This document shows positions 24,922 through 34,083 of a stretch of DNA of 57,167 bases, in pieces. The position numbers and the translations under genes are program-made. The stretch comes from Longimicrobium sp. (GTDB lineage Bacteria; Gemmatimonadota; Gemmatimonadetes; Longimicrobiales; Longimicrobiaceae), in NCBI GenBank assembly GCA_036387335.1, contig DASVTZ010000025.1:1-57167 (forward strand). The letters run 5' to 3'. The notes beneath the pieces are model-generated. The model made no database searches and was not told the DNA's origin. It saw only the letters and a program-made list of their open reading frames with translations. How positions within the stretch are numbered: position 1 is the stretch's first letter; each line of letters opens with the position of its first letter.

Positions 24922-25080
24922 CCCCGCACCACAACACCGCCACCCGCAACACACGTCGGCCGTCACGAGGCACAGAAGAAACGGCGAGAACTCGATGAGT
25001 TCTCGCCGCGTTGCGAGCCGCCGAAGGATTTGGCCGGAAGCCGGGCCGGGGTTCGCACGTCACTCGGGCCTCGCGCAACG

Positions 25081-25342
25081 CGCACTAGATCCTTCGCTTC
25101 GCGCCGGAGATCCGAGACAAGGCAAGGACTGAGCGGCGCGTCGCTCAGGATGACAGAGGAGGGGGTCCGATGCCGCGTTTCTCGAGCCCACTTCAGTGGG
25201 CTTCGCGTAGTTCCAGCCGGGGGCTTCAGCCCCCGGCGCTCGCGACACCCGCCGACACCCGCCGTCACACGCCCACCCCCGGCCCCGAGCCTGCGAAGGC
25301 AGGCTTCCCGCGGTTGTTGCAGCGGTTTCAACCGCCGGCCCC
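25081..25342. repeat. Family D unit followed by an inverted family A array (D2-A5)
   Basis: D2 (25087-25155) matches D1 at 17107-17175 in length and at both ends. A5 follows in minus orientation: AGCCCACTTCAGTGGGCT, linker CTTCGCGTAGTTCCAGCC, GGGGGCTTCAGCCCCC, a variable GC-rich spacer, GCCTGCGAAGGCAGGC, then GCGGTTTCAACCGC. Between brnT and this block (24922-25080) nothing is recognisable. Confidence 0.82.
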
Positions 25343-25373
25343 TGGCACCGCTACCGGCCCATCACCATCCGTT

Positions 25374-26741
25374 TCACCCACCGGCCCCATCCACCGCCAC
25401 CGGCTCCCTCACCGGCACCGGGTGGTACAACCGCACGCACTTCACTCGGCGCTCCTCCACCTCTTCCACGCGCAGCTCCCACTCGCCCTCCGCGCCGGGC
25501 ACGGCCACGACGTCGCCCGCCACCGGGACGCGGCCCAGGGTGCCGAAGACGTAGCCGCCCAGCGTATCGAAGTCGTCCACCGGGAGGTGCAGGAGGAAGC
25601 GGTCGTTCACCTCGGAGAGCGAGACGGCGCCGTCGATCAGGGTGTCGCCCTCGGGAGTGGGCTCGAACTCGGGCTCGGCCACGTCGAACTCGTCGTTGAT
25701 CTCGCCGACGATCTCCTCCAGGATGTCCTCCATCGTCACCAGGCCGTACGTGCCGCCGAACTCGTCCAGCACGATGGCCAGGTGCACGCTCTGCTGGCGC
25801 AGCTCGGCCAGGATGTCGCTCACCGGCTTGGTCTCGGGGACGAAGTACGGGGGACGCATCACGGCGCGCATGTCGAACCCGGCGCGCCGCTCGGCATCGC
25901 GCAGCAGGGGGAAGAGGTCCTTGATGAGGATCACGCCCACGATGGTGTCGATCGTCCCCTCGAAGACGGGGAGGCGCGAGTGGCCCTCCTCGAAGAAGAC
26001 GTCCAGCATCTCCTCGAAGGAAGCGCCCACCGGGATGGCGGCCATGGCGGTGCGCGGCGTCATCACCTCGCGCGCCACCGTGTCCGAGAAGCCGAAGACG
26101 CCGCGGATCATCTCGCGCTCGTCCTCCTCGATCTCGGTGGGGTCGGCGCCGGCGGCCACCAGCATGCGCAGCTCCTCGTCCGGCTCGGTGAGGTGCGCGA
26201 AGCCGGCGCCGCCCAGCCCGAACGGCCGCAGCGCCAGCCGCACGCACCACTCCAGCGGCTTGAGCACGGGCCAGAACACCACCCACAGAGCGCGCAGCAC
26301 GGGATAGCCCAGCACCGCCGCCACCGGCTCCGCGCGGTGCACGGCCACCAGCTTGGGAACCTGCTGCCCCAGCGTAGCGTGCAGAACGACAACGACCGCG
26401 ATGGCGATGACGTCCGCGACCGCGGCCGTCGAGCCGAAGACGGGGAGCGCGCGGACGGGACCCAGCAGCGGCACGAGGTGCGCGCGCGAGGCCGCGAGGG
26501 CGTAGGTGCCCAGGAGGATGGATACGAGGCTGCGGCCGACCTGGCCGGCGAAGAGCAGCTCCTCCAGCTGGCCGAGCGCCGGAAGGACGCGGGCCGCGCG
26601 GGTGTCGCCCTGGCGGACGTGCTGCTCGATTCGGGTGCGGCGAACGGAGAGGAGGGCGAACTCGGCGGCCACCAGGAAGGCGTTGACCAGCACGAGGCCC
26701 AGCACTGCGAGGATGCTTAGACCGCCAGGTTCAGGATCCAT
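25374..26741 (-). CDS. HlyC/CorC-family membrane protein (DUF21 + CBS + CorC_HlyC)
   Basis: 455 aa from the ATG at 26741. The N-terminal DUF21 transmembrane domain (about 1-180) starts ILAVLGLVLVNAFLVAAEFA and contains the family's NAFLVAAEFALLSVRRTRIE. A CBS pair (about 205-330) has VMTPRTAMAAIPVGASFEEM and HLAIVLDEFGGTYGLVTMED, the latter a typical CorC signature. A C-terminal CorC_HlyC FAD-like domain follows (DTLGGYVFGTLGRVPVAGDV). Family members are implicated in Mg2+ or Co2+ efflux. True transport specificity is not evident from sequence. Confidence 0.92.
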   Translation of the reverse strand: MDPEPGGLSILAVLGLVLVNAFLVAAEFALLSVRRTRIEQHVRQGDTRAARVLPALGQLEELLFAGQVGRSLVSILLGTYALAASRAHLVPLLGPVRALPVFGSTAAVADVIAIAVVVVLHATLGQQVPKLVAVHRAEPVAAVLGYPVLRALWVVFWPVLKPLEWCVRLALRPFGLGGAGFAHLTEPDEELRMLVAAGADPTEIEEDEREMIRGVFGFSDTVAREVMTPRTAMAAIPVGASFEEMLDVFFEEGHSRLPVFEGTIDTIVGVILIKDLFPLLRDAERRAGFDMRAVMRPPYFVPETKPVSDILAELRQQSVHLAIVLDEFGGTYGLVTMEDILEEIVGEINDEFDVAEPEFEPTPEGDTLIDGAVSLSEVNDRFLLHLPVDDFDTLGGYVFGTLGRVPVAGDVVAVPGAEGEWELRVEEVEERRVKCVRLYHPVPVREPVAVDGAGG

Positions 26742-26854
26742 GCGAGGTGTACGTAGGAAGGGAGCCCGGCCCACCCGGGCTCCCCGAATCGCGCGGAGCG
26801 GCCGGCGCGCCGAACCCTCTCGGCGCTATCCCGGCCCTCCGTGCGGCCGCCGCG

Positions 26855-27196
26855 TCAGGCCGCGGCGGTCTCGGTCTCTGTCTCGGCTTCGGCTTCCGCC
26901 TCGAAGCTGACGGCTTCGGCTTCCGCTTCAACCTCGACGGGCGAGTTGGCGATCACCGGGCGGCAGAAGCGCAGCCCGATCCCAGCCAGCTCGTCCAGCT
27001 CTTCGCGGGTCAGCGCCGGATAGCGCTCGCCCATGAAGTCCACCGTATCCTTCATCCACTCCTCCTGCTGCTCAGCTTCGGCGCGAAGCACGCCGCAGCG
27101 GTGGATGTGGCTGAACAGCTCGTTCCGAGCCTCTTCCAGCGCCGAGGGCGCGGAGGAACGCTGCGGCTTCCGATCACGATCGCGGTTTCTGCTCAA
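26855..27196 (-). CDS. Small acidic-tailed protein behind a possible attenuator, unknown
   Basis: 113 aa from a TTG at 27196, chosen because GGAGG lies 5 nt upstream; the frame continues to 27256 but has no ribosome-binding site there. Basic N-terminus (SRNRDRDRKPQRSS), then a helical core with HIHRCGVLRAEAEQQEEWMK and YPALTREELDELAGIGLRFC, then a Glu-rich tail (EAEAEAVSFEAEAEAETETE). There is no signal peptide. The function is unknown. A promoter and an intrinsic-terminator-like hairpin lie in its leader, suggesting regulated read-through. Confidence 0.7.
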   Translation of the reverse strand: MSRNRDRDRKPQRSSAPSALEEARNELFSHIHRCGVLRAEAEQQEEWMKDTVDFMGERYPALTREELDELAGIGLRFCRPVIANSPVEVEAEAEAVSFEAEAEAETETETAAA

Positions 27197-27212
27197 AAGG
27201 CCTCCAAGTCGC

Positions 27213-27239
27213 GAAAAAAGAACCCCTCGCGCGGAGGGG
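27213..27239 (-). terminator. Terminator-like hairpin in the leader (candidate attenuator)
   Basis: On the minus strand, CCCCTC (27239-27234), loop CGCGC, then GAGGGG (27228-27223) and TTCTTTTTT. It lies about 35 nt downstream of the likely transcription start and about 15 nt before the ribosome-binding site of the 27196 gene. No minus-strand gene lies upstream that would need terminating. Confidence 0.65.
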
Positions 27240-27265
27240 AGAGTGGTGCGTTGCAAATGTATGGT

Positions 27266-27294
27266 AATATAGCACTTTTTCGGCGTTTTGGAAA
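27266..27294 (-). promoter_or_regulatory. Promoter of the 27196 gene
   Basis: Minus strand: TTTCCA (27294-27289), a 17-bp spacer, then TATATT (27271-27266). The -10 box is strong and lies in an AT-rich pocket (GTATGGTAATATAGCAC on the plus strand). Confidence 0.65.
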
Positions 27295-27371
27295 CTCCGG
27301 GGTCCGTCCTTTGCTACCCCCGGCGCGTAAGGAGGTTGCGGCCTCGTGGAAGGAACGTCCGGCGGAGGGGG

Positions 27372-28217
27372 ATGATGGCGCGCGGGGGGATCGAGCGGGG
27401 CCCGGTTCGGGAGCGGTGGAGGTGGCCGGTGGCGCGTGCGTGGTGGCACACGCTCGGCCTGCGCGCGTCGTCCGCGGACGTCGGCCCCTACCGCGTGCAC
27501 TGGGTGGAAGCCGGCGATGCGACCGCCGAGACGCTGGTGCTGATCCACGGCCTGAGCGGATCGTCGCGCTGGTGGCAGCGCAACATCCCGGCGCTGTCGG
27601 CGCGCTACCGCGTGGTGGTGCCGGACCTGATCGGCTTCGGGCGCAGCCGCTGCCCCGGGCCGCTGCCCGCCATGCCGGACGTGGCCTCCGTCTTCGCGAA
27701 GTGGATGGACGTCGCGCGGACGGGTCCCGTGCACCTGGTGGGGCACTCGATGGGCGGACACCTGGCCGTGCACGTGGCCGCGCGCCACCCGGAGCGCATC
27801 CGCCGGCTGGTGCTGGCCGATGCCGCCGGGCTCCCGCGGCCTGTCACCATCAGCTCGGTGGTGCGCTTCGTCTACGAGCTCGCCCCGCCCAAGCAGTGGG
27901 GCGACCCGGCCTTCCTCCCCGTCATCTGGGGCGACGCGCTCTCCGCCGGTCCGTTCGCGGTGGCGCAGGGGCTCCGCAACATCCTGCGCGACGACGTGCG
28001 CCCGCTGCTCCCCGTGCTCACCCAGCCGACGCTGGTGATCTGGGGCGCGGGCGACGCCGTCATCCCGCTGGAGAACGCGCACGTCTTCCGCGCCACCATC
28101 CCCGGCGCGCGGCTGGCGGTGATCCCGCACGCCTTCCACAACCCCATGGTGGACCAGCCGGAAGCCTTCAACCGGCTGGTGCTCGGCTTCCTCGCGGGCG
28201 AGCAGGTGGGGGAGTGA
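27372..28217 (+). CDS. Alpha/beta-fold hydrolase
   Basis: 281 aa from the ATG at 27372 (a second ATG follows at once), with GGAGGGGG upstream. Oxyanion-hole region LVLIHGLSGSSRWW, nucleophile elbow GHSMGG, catalytic acid in WGAGDAVIP and catalytic His in HAFHNPM, in the usual order. It has an N-terminal segment with no predicted signal, so it is probably cytoplasmic. The substrate cannot be told. A downstream paralogue starts within its stop codon (GTGA), so the two are co-translated. Confidence 0.88.
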   Translation: MMARGGIERGPVRERWRWPVARAWWHTLGLRASSADVGPYRVHWVEAGDATAETLVLIHGLSGSSRWWQRNIPALSARYRVVVPDLIGFGRSRCPGPLPAMPDVASVFAKWMDVARTGPVHLVGHSMGGHLAVHVAARHPERIRRLVLADAAGLPRPVTISSVVRFVYELAPPKQWGDPAFLPVIWGDALSAGPFAVAQGLRNILRDDVRPLLPVLTQPTLVIWGAGDAVIPLENAHVFRATIPGARLAVIPHAFHNPMVDQPEAFNRLVLGFLAGEQVGE

Positions 28218-29041
28218 CGCGTCCCGGCGAGGCGCTGGGCCGCGCCGCCGCGGAGTGGATCGTGACGCGGCGGGTGGAGGTGAACGGGATCGCCGTGCGC
28301 TACCGTGAGGCGGGGAGCGGGCCCGCTCTGGTCCTCGTGCACGGCCTCGGCTGCTCGGCGGACTACTGGGTGCGCAACGGCCCGCCGCTCGCCGCCGCCG
28401 GCCTGCGCGTCCTCGCCCCCGACCTCCCCGGCTTCGGCCGCACCGACGGCCCCTGGCGCGGCCTGGACATCGACGAGCAGGCGGCGGCCCTCGCGGACTG
28501 GGCGGACGCGATGGGGCTGCCGCCGGCCGCGTACGTGGGCCACTCGCTCTCCTGCCAGACCGTCGTGGACCTCGCCGCCGACCATCCCGGCCGCGCCGTC
28601 GCCCTCCTCCTCGCCGCCCCCACCGGCGACCGCAGCGAGAAGCGCCGCATCCGCGAGATCATCGGCTTCGCGCGCGACATGTTCCGCGAGCCTCTGTCGC
28701 TCGTCCCCTGGATCGCGGAGGCGTACCTGCGCGCGGGCCTGGTGCGGTGGTTCCTGACCTGGTGGAAGGCGAAGCACCACGACCTCTTCGGCACCGCCGC
28801 GCGCGTCAGGGTCCCCGCGCGCGTGGTGGTGGGCGAGCGCGACCCGGTGGTCCCGGTATGGTTCGCCGAATCCGTGGCAGCGGCGCTCCCCGGCGCGCGT
28901 TGCGACGTGATCCCCCGCGCCGCCCACGCCGTCATCTTCGACGCCGCCGAGCAATTCAACACTGCCATCCTCGACTTCCTCCGCGACACCGGCCACGCCG
29001 ACCCCGGCCCGCTGCCGAACACGGCGCTGCGGGGGAGGTGA
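28214..29041 (+). CDS. Alpha/beta-fold hydrolase, paralogue of the upstream gene
   Basis: 275 aa from the GTG at 28214, overlapping the previous stop. LVLVHGLGCSADYW, nucleophile elbow GHSLSC (Gly at the +2 position is replaced by Cys, which is unusual for GxSxG), acid in VGERDPVVP and His in AAHAVIF. The length, motif spacing and coupling point to an old tandem duplication followed by divergence. The altered elbow may change or reduce activity. The open frame continues far upstream on the same strand, but only as an overlap shadow of other genes. Confidence 0.85.
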   Translation: MTRPGEALGRAAAEWIVTRRVEVNGIAVRYREAGSGPALVLVHGLGCSADYWVRNGPPLAAAGLRVLAPDLPGFGRTDGPWRGLDIDEQAAALADWADAMGLPPAAYVGHSLSCQTVVDLAADHPGRAVALLLAAPTGDRSEKRRIREIIGFARDMFREPLSLVPWIAEAYLRAGLVRWFLTWWKAKHHDLFGTAARVRVPARVVVGERDPVVPVWFAESVAAALPGARCDVIPRAAHAVIFDAAEQFNTAILDFLRDTGHADPGPLPNTALRGR

Positions 29042-29092: not shown

Positions 29093-29551
29093 TTAGTTCG
29101 TCTTGCACGCCCGCTTGCAGCGGCTGACGCAGTTACGGGTGCATTTGACTGACCCTTCGTCGTTGCTGGCATAAGATTCACCATATTCCTGCTGCCACAG
29201 TTCGGATGTGTAGCGGAACGTGGCAGCGAGTACTGGCGCTTCCTCGGGCTCACTACCGAAACCGCCATCGTGATCGATAATCTCCCCGAAGCTCGACATG
29301 CAGTCGTGATAGTAAGCAACCGGATGAAGCATGTGCAGATGCCACATCTCGTCGATATCCCGCGTCGGCGCGATGATAGCTTCCGGATACCTCTGGATGA
29401 GCGTCAGGAACTTCTTATACCGGTCGGCAGACTCTACAATCTCACGCGGGCTGCAGCCTGAAAAAAACCCATCCTCCACTCTGCGGGATGCGACAACTAG
29501 ATCCACGGAGATAGTGACGGGGCGAGTATGGTTGATGGCGCCCGTGCTCAT
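29093..29551 (-). CDS. GRDP/DUF1399-like protein with a cysteine-repeat tail
   Basis: 152 aa from the ATG at 29551, preceded by GGAGG at a 9-nt spacing. The core RYKKFLTLIQRYPEAIIAPT and DIDEMWHLHMLHPVAYYHDC match the 'glycine-rich domain-containing' (DUF1399) signature, with its conserved D-I-D, W-H, H and HP positions. The extreme C-terminus CTRNCVSRCKRACKTN has four cysteines at exact i+4 spacing (CxxxCxxxCxxxC) in a basic context, so they would line one face of a helix. It is the first gene of a lower-GC block. Function unknown; metal binding or post-translational modification of the tail is inference. Confidence 0.75.
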   Translation of the reverse strand: MSTGAINHTRPVTISVDLVVASRRVEDGFFSGCSPREIVESADRYKKFLTLIQRYPEAIIAPTRDIDEMWHLHMLHPVAYYHDCMSSFGEIIDHDGGFGSEPEEAPVLAATFRYTSELWQQEYGESYASNDEGSVKCTRNCVSRCKRACKTN

Positions 29552-29739
29552 CGGGGAATACCTCCAAAAGTAAATCGAGTGAGTGAAGCGACCTGGCGAA
29601 CGCCCTCAGGCACAGTTGCACAGGACCGAAATGCGCACAACGCGCGCAGAGCCCGCTCCCGCTGTCCATTTCTGCGGCGGAAGAATGCCCGGCCAACTGA
29701 TGCCTGCAGCACTTCCGTTAAGTAGCGAAGGGGGCAACC

Positions 29740-30087
29740 TTACGTCTCATAAACCTCAGAAACCCAGGGCGCGATCGTGTCCGCAATGCCCTTAATCGCC
29801 GCACCCCGGTTCTTTGCTCTGGTGACTATCCAGCCGACAACCCCGGATACGGCAGCGAGGATTTCCTTCCAGGGCAGCTTGCTGAGGTCGATGCCACCAC
29901 TCATTGCACCGAAGCCCTCGGCATTCTGGATGGTAGAAATTGGAGAATTCTTCCCCCGTTCAGCGTCGTAAATTTCTTCCGCGATCTGATTCCGAGCAGC
30001 GAGGTACCCTGTTCCCTCGTCCTTGAGCTGCTTCGCCCTGATCTGGACAAGGCGGCGCATTGTAGCAGTGTCTGTCGGTGTACTCAT
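29740..30087 (-). CDS. Small protein with one amphipathic/hydrophobic helix, unknown
   Basis: 115 aa from the ATG at 30087. The N-terminal half is charged and helical (MRRLVQIRAKQLKDEGTGYL, NQIAEEIYDAERGK). The second half has LPWKEILAAVSGVVGWIVTR, a hydrophobic stretch followed by basic residues, which could insert in or lie on a membrane. No family is recognised. A good promoter lies 45-70 bp upstream. It is followed, after 188 bp without visible features, by the GRDP-like gene on the same strand. Confidence 0.6.
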   Translation of the reverse strand: MSTPTDTATMRRLVQIRAKQLKDEGTGYLAARNQIAEEIYDAERGKNSPISTIQNAEGFGAMSGGIDLSKLPWKEILAAVSGVVGWIVTRAKNRGAAIKGIADTIAPWVSEVYET

Positions 30088-33406: not shown

Positions 33407-33817
33407 CTATGGTAGAATATCGAATGCGTGCATTCCGTTGATCCGATACGCACGGAAGTGCCGGTCGACGGTGAAAATGCGGCGCAGGCTCAACCGTTCG
33501 GCGGCCGAAACCAGAGAAGCATCGGCCAGATCCATCGGCGTATCGTGGTACTGCCGCATCAGCACCCGGATGCGGTCCTGCTCCGCTTCGTCGGGTGGAT
33601 GCAGCATGACCAGATTGTCACTCACATAGCCCCAGAGCACATCCTGCGCAGGGAAGCCGCCGGCACGGCCCAGCAGGTACATGGCTTCAGTGAAGCAGGG
33701 CCAGGTGGTGAGCAACGGGCCAGGAGGCAACTTCCCGAGCAGGGCCACACACCGAGAATGGTGGGCATCATCGCGGTCGATGAGCGCCACCAGCGGCCCG
33801 GCGTCGCAGAGAGTCAC
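33407..33817 (-). CDS. PIN-domain toxin, VapC-like
   Basis: 136 aa. The PIN-fold acidic residues are in place: Asp5 (TLCDAGPLVAL), Glu44 (FTEAMYLL), Asp96 and Asp99 (PMDLADASLV) and Asp118 (IFTVDRHF). Such proteins are Mg2+-dependent ribonucleases that cut tRNA or rRNA. The start ATG overlaps the stop of the antitoxin gene by 4 bp. It lies exactly between the decayed DHS-like fragment and the intact DHS-like gene, so it may mark an insertion or recombination point. Confidence 0.9.
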   Translation of the reverse strand: MTLCDAGPLVALIDRDDAHHSRCVALLGKLPPGPLLTTWPCFTEAMYLLGRAGGFPAQDVLWGYVSDNLVMLHPPDEAEQDRIRVLMRQYHDTPMDLADASLVSAAERLSLRRIFTVDRHFRAYRINGMHAFDILP

Positions 33818-34083
33818 AGGTGACCTGCGCGCCGCTTCGCCTCCAGGTGCTCCACGAAGGCCTCGCCCGCGCCTTCAGACAGCGGTTCCCGCCCTCCACT
33901 CGCGATCTGGCCCACGCGGCCGGCGAACAACTCAGCGAGTGTTCGAGCCGTTGGCCCGGACCCGGGCTCGGTGGGCGCGCCCACCTGTGCGGCGATCCAC
34001 GCTGCCGGGCTAACGCCGCTGGCTTCGGCGGCATCGCGCAACGCCTCGTACACGGGTTCGGGCAGTTCGATGATTCGGCTCAT
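33814..34083 (-). CDS. VapB-type antitoxin
   Basis: 89 aa from the ATG at 34083. The N-terminus MSRIIELPEPVYEALRDAAE reads as a ribbon-helix-helix or CopG-like DNA-binding unit (beta strand, then two helices through SGVSPAAWIAAQV). The C-terminal half has FAGRVGQIASGGREPLSEGA, often seen in antitoxins of PIN toxins, and ends in a charged helix. It overlaps the toxin gene by ATGA, upstream of it, as expected for vapBC. Confidence 0.82.
   Translation of the reverse strand: MSRIIELPEPVYEALRDAAEASGVSPAAWIAAQVGAPTEPGSGPTARTLAELFAGRVGQIASGGREPLSEGAGEAFVEHLEAKRRAGHL

Follow-up and report, generated by a model that had tools for sequence, protein, structure and literature searches.

A bacterial GRDP-like protein with a conserved four-cysteine tail, and the association of related tails with TauD-family oxygenases

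Our analysis showed that the window (the whole 57,167-nucleotide stretch of Longimicrobium sp. DNA that was analysed) encodes a GRDP-like protein ending in a CxxxCxxxCxxxC (C4) tail. The four cysteines are present with identical spacing in all 16 C4-tail loci found, the window and 15 others. In the 13 loci whose tail reads CWHDCxxRCW[HN]AC, a gene for a TauD-family 2-oxoglutarate/Fe oxygenase is always adjacent or fused. We tentatively read the GRDP protein as a folded carrier or leader domain with a C-terminal substrate tail, similar to a RiPP precursor, and hold the chances of this reading to be slightly short of even. The features of the window gene are listed in Table 1.

Table 1. Features of the GRDP-like gene in the window
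Feature	Position	Strand	Basis
GRDP-like (PF07173) gene, 152 aa, with C-terminal C4 tail	29093..29551	(-)	Translation; Pfam E = 7.5e-14; homologues
GRDP-like domain, about residues 14-127, APTRDIDEMWHLHMLHPVAYYHDC...DHDGGFG block, predicted all-helical	29171..29512	(-)	Invariant alignment columns; AlphaFold
Tail CTRNCVSRCKRACKTN, residues 137-152, CxxxCxxxCxxxC, without the WH pairs of relatives	29096..29143	(-)	Translation; same spacing in 15 other loci; disordered in model
GGAGG, likely ribosome-binding site	29561..29565	(-)	Read directly from sequence

The window gene reads from an ATG at 29551 to a stop at 29095-29093, the GGAGG lies nine bases 5′ of this ATG, and a promoter and terminator scan found nothing. 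An earlier note on this DNA had called the core DUF1399-like. This was borne out by the match to PF07173 (GRDP-like, formerly DUF1399), which scored 53.1 bits against a cutoff of 22.7 and aligned residues 38-83 of the protein with positions 94-143 of the profile. The protein of L014, a locus from the same genus, scored 55.4 bits. In the alignment, the invariant residues are grouped in an IDEMWHxHM..P..Y..DC block and a DH..GFG block, and from these residues we infer a putative metal site within the conserved blocks. AlphaFold, given an eight-row alignment, returned an all-helical domain with pLDDT mostly 83-95 over residues 11-130, falling to 69 around the loop at 91-100. Searches of the PDB gave nothing credible by sequence for the window protein and no match below E = 2 by fold for the domain model. 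The window protein was also unmatched by PADLOC.

The domain had been described as mostly known from eukaryotic proteins. This is true of the literature that we found but not of its occurrence, as some bacteria often carry PF07173: in the Massilia family it was found in 157 of 343 genomes. DUF1399 matches in the literature were mostly plant papers, and our search found no description of bacterial PF07173 members, no bacterial glycine-rich domain protein with repeats, and no biochemical role for the domain. Plant GRDPs, such as Arabidopsis GRDP2, belong to the same family as the window protein by the curated Pfam cutoff. However, they carry a glycine-rich region, whereas the window protein has no such region and consists of one domain followed by a C4 tail. 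PF07173 is a family present in plants and frequent in some bacteria, yet one for which neither a role nor a matching solved structure was found.

The window tail reads CTRN-CVSR-CKRA-CKTN. Its cysteines are at residues 137, 141, 145 and 149, at exact i+4 spacing within the last 16 residues, as the earlier note had stated. The same note placed them within a basic helix; the stretch is indeed rich in Lys and Arg, but the helix is weak. AlphaFold pLDDT is about 30-40 over residues 130-152, where the one helix, at 141-149, is short and of low confidence, and the tail is thus predicted to be disordered behind a confident helical domain. The 15 other C4 loci come from Gemmatimonadota, Myxococcota, Massilia and one contig from a planctomycete group. 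All four cysteines are kept, with unchanged spacing, in L014, which is 64% identical to the window protein, and in the Myxococcota and Massilia homologues at 45-51% identity, which argues that the C4 tail is not due to chance. An Arg directly precedes the third Cys in 15 of the 16 loci, replaced by Tyr in L089. Thirteen of the 15 others carry CWHDCxxRCW[HN]AC, an internal duplication with CWHxC occurring twice. Both WH pairs together are lacking from three loci: the window (CTRNC, CKRAC), where Arg/Lys-containing pairs stand at the positions of the Trp-His of relatives, L014 (CKRDC, CWHAC) and L089 (CWHRC, CKRAC). Viral contigs gave nothing with either the alignment query or a CWHDC..RCWHAC DNA pattern, and phages gave only one weak match.

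Of the 13 loci with both WH pairs, ten have the TauD gene directly adjacent (L001, L002, L003, L005, L084-L088 and L119), and three encode it fused in frame as TauD-GRDP-tail (L090, L091 and L092). TauD is absent beside all three C4 loci without both pairs. Fisher's exact test on WH pairs and TauD over the 16 loci gave P 0.0018, a value uncorrected for shared ancestry and counting both L003 and L005, which are near-identical. L119 is a short contig of genome G1300, for which mis-binning is possible. Pfam named PF02668 for the TauDs of L001, L002, L003 and L119, and the others were recognised through BLAST with those enzymes. The HxD...H iron triad is kept in all 13. TauD is the sole neighbour conserved across these loci; the surroundings of the C4 loci share no protease, exporter or second modifying enzyme. 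The two genes are co-directional with a 4-base overlap in L084, convergent in L001 and fused in others; these three arrangements make hitch-hiking unlikely. The fused proteins lie in a different GRDP clade, about 34% identical to the window protein, but end in the same tail, which means that the linkage goes with the tail and not with the domain. The tree, several of whose internal supports are low, places the fused proteins in another GRDP clade and the TauD-less loci at two positions. The case for independence of the association comes from the three arrangements together with this placement.

With the L084 TauD as the query, nothing was found in G000 or G001, and one match (4e-7) was found in G898, the genome of L089, on another contig. 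The curated models nearest to the partner TauDs are TmpA, the butyrobetaine and trimethyllysine dioxygenases, and clavaminate synthase. TmpA, butyrobetaine dioxygenase and clavaminate synthase are of the same TauD family, whose iron triad is kept in the partners, but the partners score far below every named equivalog cutoff and are linked or fused to a GRDP-tail protein. We know of no named TauD-family equivalog that is so linked or fused. A different oxygenase association was seen in Candidatus Sulfopaludibacter (L007/L122), where a GRDP gene without a C4 tail is near genes for a semialdehyde dehydrogenase, a PhyH-type oxygenase and an AMP-binding protein.

We propose that the GRDP-like domain would serve as a domain-sized leader presenting a flexible C-terminal tail, in a layout like that of a RiPP precursor. 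In most relatives, a dedicated TauD-type 2-oxoglutarate/Fe(II) oxygenase, adjacent or fused, would oxidise both CWHxC units (CWHDC-xxR-CWHAC), with Trp, His or Cys as the probable target residue. Once modified, the Cys-rich tail, which may be released from the domain, would be the functional part, as a thiol or metal-binding product or as a protein-bound cofactor. The layout predicted by AlphaFold fits a leader and core, although no conserved protease was found at C4 loci. A candidate modifying enzyme, TauD, stands at 13 of the 16 C4 loci and none at the window. The earlier suggestion of a modified peptide gains from the linkage of an oxygenase with the tail. This enzyme, however, resembles TauD and is neither a radical SAM enzyme, a protease nor a known thiol-modifying enzyme, and it is absent beside the window gene. 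The window copy has kept the four cysteines, and no partner oxygenase is recognisable nearby or elsewhere in its genome. As it has neither WH pairs nor such a partner, its tail is probably not modified by a TauD of this kind. It may retain a residual thiol or metal role, or an enzyme may serve it in trans.

Tandem, species-variable repeats behind the GRDP domain of other relatives, a multi-core-like layout, count in favour of a substrate tail. Against it, the core hardly varies from phylum to phylum, in contrast to most cores of natural products, although invariance is seen in cofactor-type RiPPs. The substrates for which the TauD family is best known are small molecules, and the persistence of four cysteines without TauD implies a role for them that needs no TauD. 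The lack of a partner enzyme at the window also counts against a substrate tail, and less can be said about the function of an orphan copy itself.

Several other explanations of the tail were considered. It could be a metal site (four Cys, with two His in relatives, binding Fe, Zn or Cu), in which case the GRDP protein would act as a metallochaperone or regulatory subunit, supplying TauD with iron or sensing iron on its behalf. We regard this as a serious rival, if a somewhat unlikely one; the invariance of Cys spacing over 16 loci, the Cys and His of the motif, the retention of the cysteines without the oxygenase, and a partner which is itself an iron enzyme, fused to the GRDP protein at some loci, all agree with it, and the conserved His, Asp and Cys of the GRDP block could themselves bind metal. 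It leaves the invariant Trp of the WH pairs unexplained, and Ser replaces Cys at equivalent repeats in the tails of other GRDP relatives. For most 2OG oxygenases, no need for a metallochaperone is known. Short conserved C-terminal motifs often dock partners, and the covariation of WH pairs with TauD would be expected of a docking motif no less than of a substrate. A tail that is itself unmodified, either a redox or disulfide-forming element or a docking tail bringing the oxygenase to an unrelated small molecule, is nonetheless quite improbable: the motif is kept in the fused proteins, where docking in trans is needless, and a duplication like that of CWHxC is seen more typically where a substrate or ligand unit is repeated.

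Some sactipeptides, such as thuricin CD, use i+4 Cys spacing, and a domain with a tail resembles a precursor in layout. Thioether formation at the cysteines of the CxxxC tail by a radical SAM enzyme, as in a sactipeptide- or ranthipeptide-like RiPP, is scarcely credible here. A motif scan found CxxxCxxC in no called gene of the window, and TauD is the only gene conserved beside C4 loci; the protease, radical SAM or thiol-modifying enzyme that the earlier note had proposed to look for nearby was not among the conserved neighbours. Nor did its idea of a leader-like core hold in the typical sense, the domain being a conserved, folded module of about 115 residues and not a short leader. Lipidation likewise found no support, as the N-terminus MSTGAINHTRPVTISVDLV, read by eye, has no signal peptide or lipobox of a bacterial lipoprotein, and the cysteines are C-terminal. 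Finally, the missing partner TauD, the absent WH pairs and the island-like lower G+C would suit a decaying orphan whose functionless tail retains its cysteines by recent descent. This is very improbable given the open frame with a good ribosome-binding site, and given that the four cysteines are kept relative to L014 at a dN of about 0.29, with silent sites so saturated that no dS was estimated.

Returning to the substrate-tail reading, known systems offer partial parallels. In the plant burpitide cyclase pathway, a 2OG/iron enzyme is known to carry out a later oxidation (PMC12871766). The BURP-domain precursors likewise combine a conserved domain with short aromatic-containing cores, in the same chain or in a separate precursor. 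But burpitide cyclases act by copper-dependent autocatalysis, no homology with GRDP has been shown, and there is no sign of a catalytic GRDP domain. In the MNIO (DUF692)-modified cysteine RiPPs (thiooxazole metallophores), a nonheme iron enzyme oxidises peptides to metal-binding products (PMC12668002), much as might happen to the GRDP tail. The enzyme family and the precursor are different, and the C4 loci have no MNIO gene among their conserved neighbours. Modification of the tail, if it occurs, would be TauD-type oxidation of an encoded Cys/Trp/His peptide on a carrier domain unrecognised as a RiPP leader, for which a limited literature search found no precedent; titles and abstracts on TauD together with RiPPs held nothing on point. 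The GRDP tail and its oxygenase, including the in-frame fusion, form a directly testable two-gene system.

The relatives were gathered by one genome scan and whole-genome searches. Close relatives are sporadic, this type being found in 2 of 298 genomes of the phylum, those of the window and of L014, and the neighbours of these two genes have none in common. G+C is 56-60% at the window gene and its upstream neighbour, against 70-78% over 25000-29000 (with one dip to 63%) and 71-73% beyond 34200, and is intermediate from 30200 to about 34000. The lower G+C fits horizontal acquisition of the gene but is no proof of it. The window copy is probably a horizontally acquired orphan.

The upstream neighbour in the same low-G+C patch is a 115-aa ORF (29740-30087, minus strand) with no Pfam or PADLOC match and no significant NCBIfam match, possibly a passenger of the same transfer. 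The 136-aa member of an overlapping ORF pair on the minus strand at 33407-34083 has a weak, sub-cutoff match to the VapC-type TIGR00028; the two may be a toxin-antitoxin pair bordering the stretch of lower G+C. Around the GRDP genes of L014 and L015, short recurring stretches translating like SADESLARRPRTP suggest a dispersed repeat in the genus of the window. PADLOC also identified neighbours of single relatives, a SIR2-like PDC-S25 protein at L003 and a type I specificity subunit at L001.

The earlier note had proposed to see whether homologues keep the cysteines and their spacing. This holds within the C4 type; the wider family differs. L007 has a GRDP protein without such a tail, and other Gemmatimonadota relatives (L013, L024-L030) have Gly/Cys-rich tails. 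Long tandem repeats follow the same domain in proteins of Cupriavidus and Variovorax replicons and of Oxalobacteraceae. The aromatic-Cys or aromatic-Ser repeats of the more distant relatives (AYCARVA, AWCGRAP, AFCGSPEKQAN, AYSGRAVQ, AFSSAPVK) vary between species, and their Cys can be Ser. A CHASE or dCache sensor-related gene lies within 420 bp of, or overlaps, the GRDP-repeat gene in all 22 betaproteobacterial loci, which are best-scoring matches of one search and not a random sample (20 Massilia-family regions, L093-L112, and one Cupriavidus and one Variovorax replicon, L017 and L019). The sensor is a CHASE relative in 21 and dCache only in L097, with Pfam confirmation on a subset of the 22, and the sensors are coupled to outputs such as histidine kinase, GGDEF and EAL domains. 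In 11 of the CHASE kinases, mean identity is 44% over the CHASE region and 67% over the kinase region; greater divergence of the sensor region is usual for sensors. The GRDP-repeat gene may possibly be a multi-copy peptide-signal precursor with an adjacent receptor. A broader generalisation, which we consider unlikely, would make the bacterial GRDP-like domain a widespread, undescribed class of peptide precursors with a folded leader and aromatic-Cys/Ser cores, in which either a CWHxC pair is modified by a dedicated or fused TauD, or tandem cores stand beside CHASE/dCache sensors as peptide signals with their receptors, the window gene being an orphan member.

Further Cys-rich tails were observed. 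Brevibacillus dissolubilis has two GRDP paralogues (L004:9968-10666 and L006:9974-10669) with different tandem Cys repeats (AMIKCLYRKADSNP and AQAKICLGTPE); an early idea of RiPP enzymes at these loci failed, none being recognised by eye near either gene. A GRDP protein of a gammaproteobacterial group (L120:8023-8517, minus strand) ends in another Cys-rich tail, CQDHACHAPTSCACRTPGACK.
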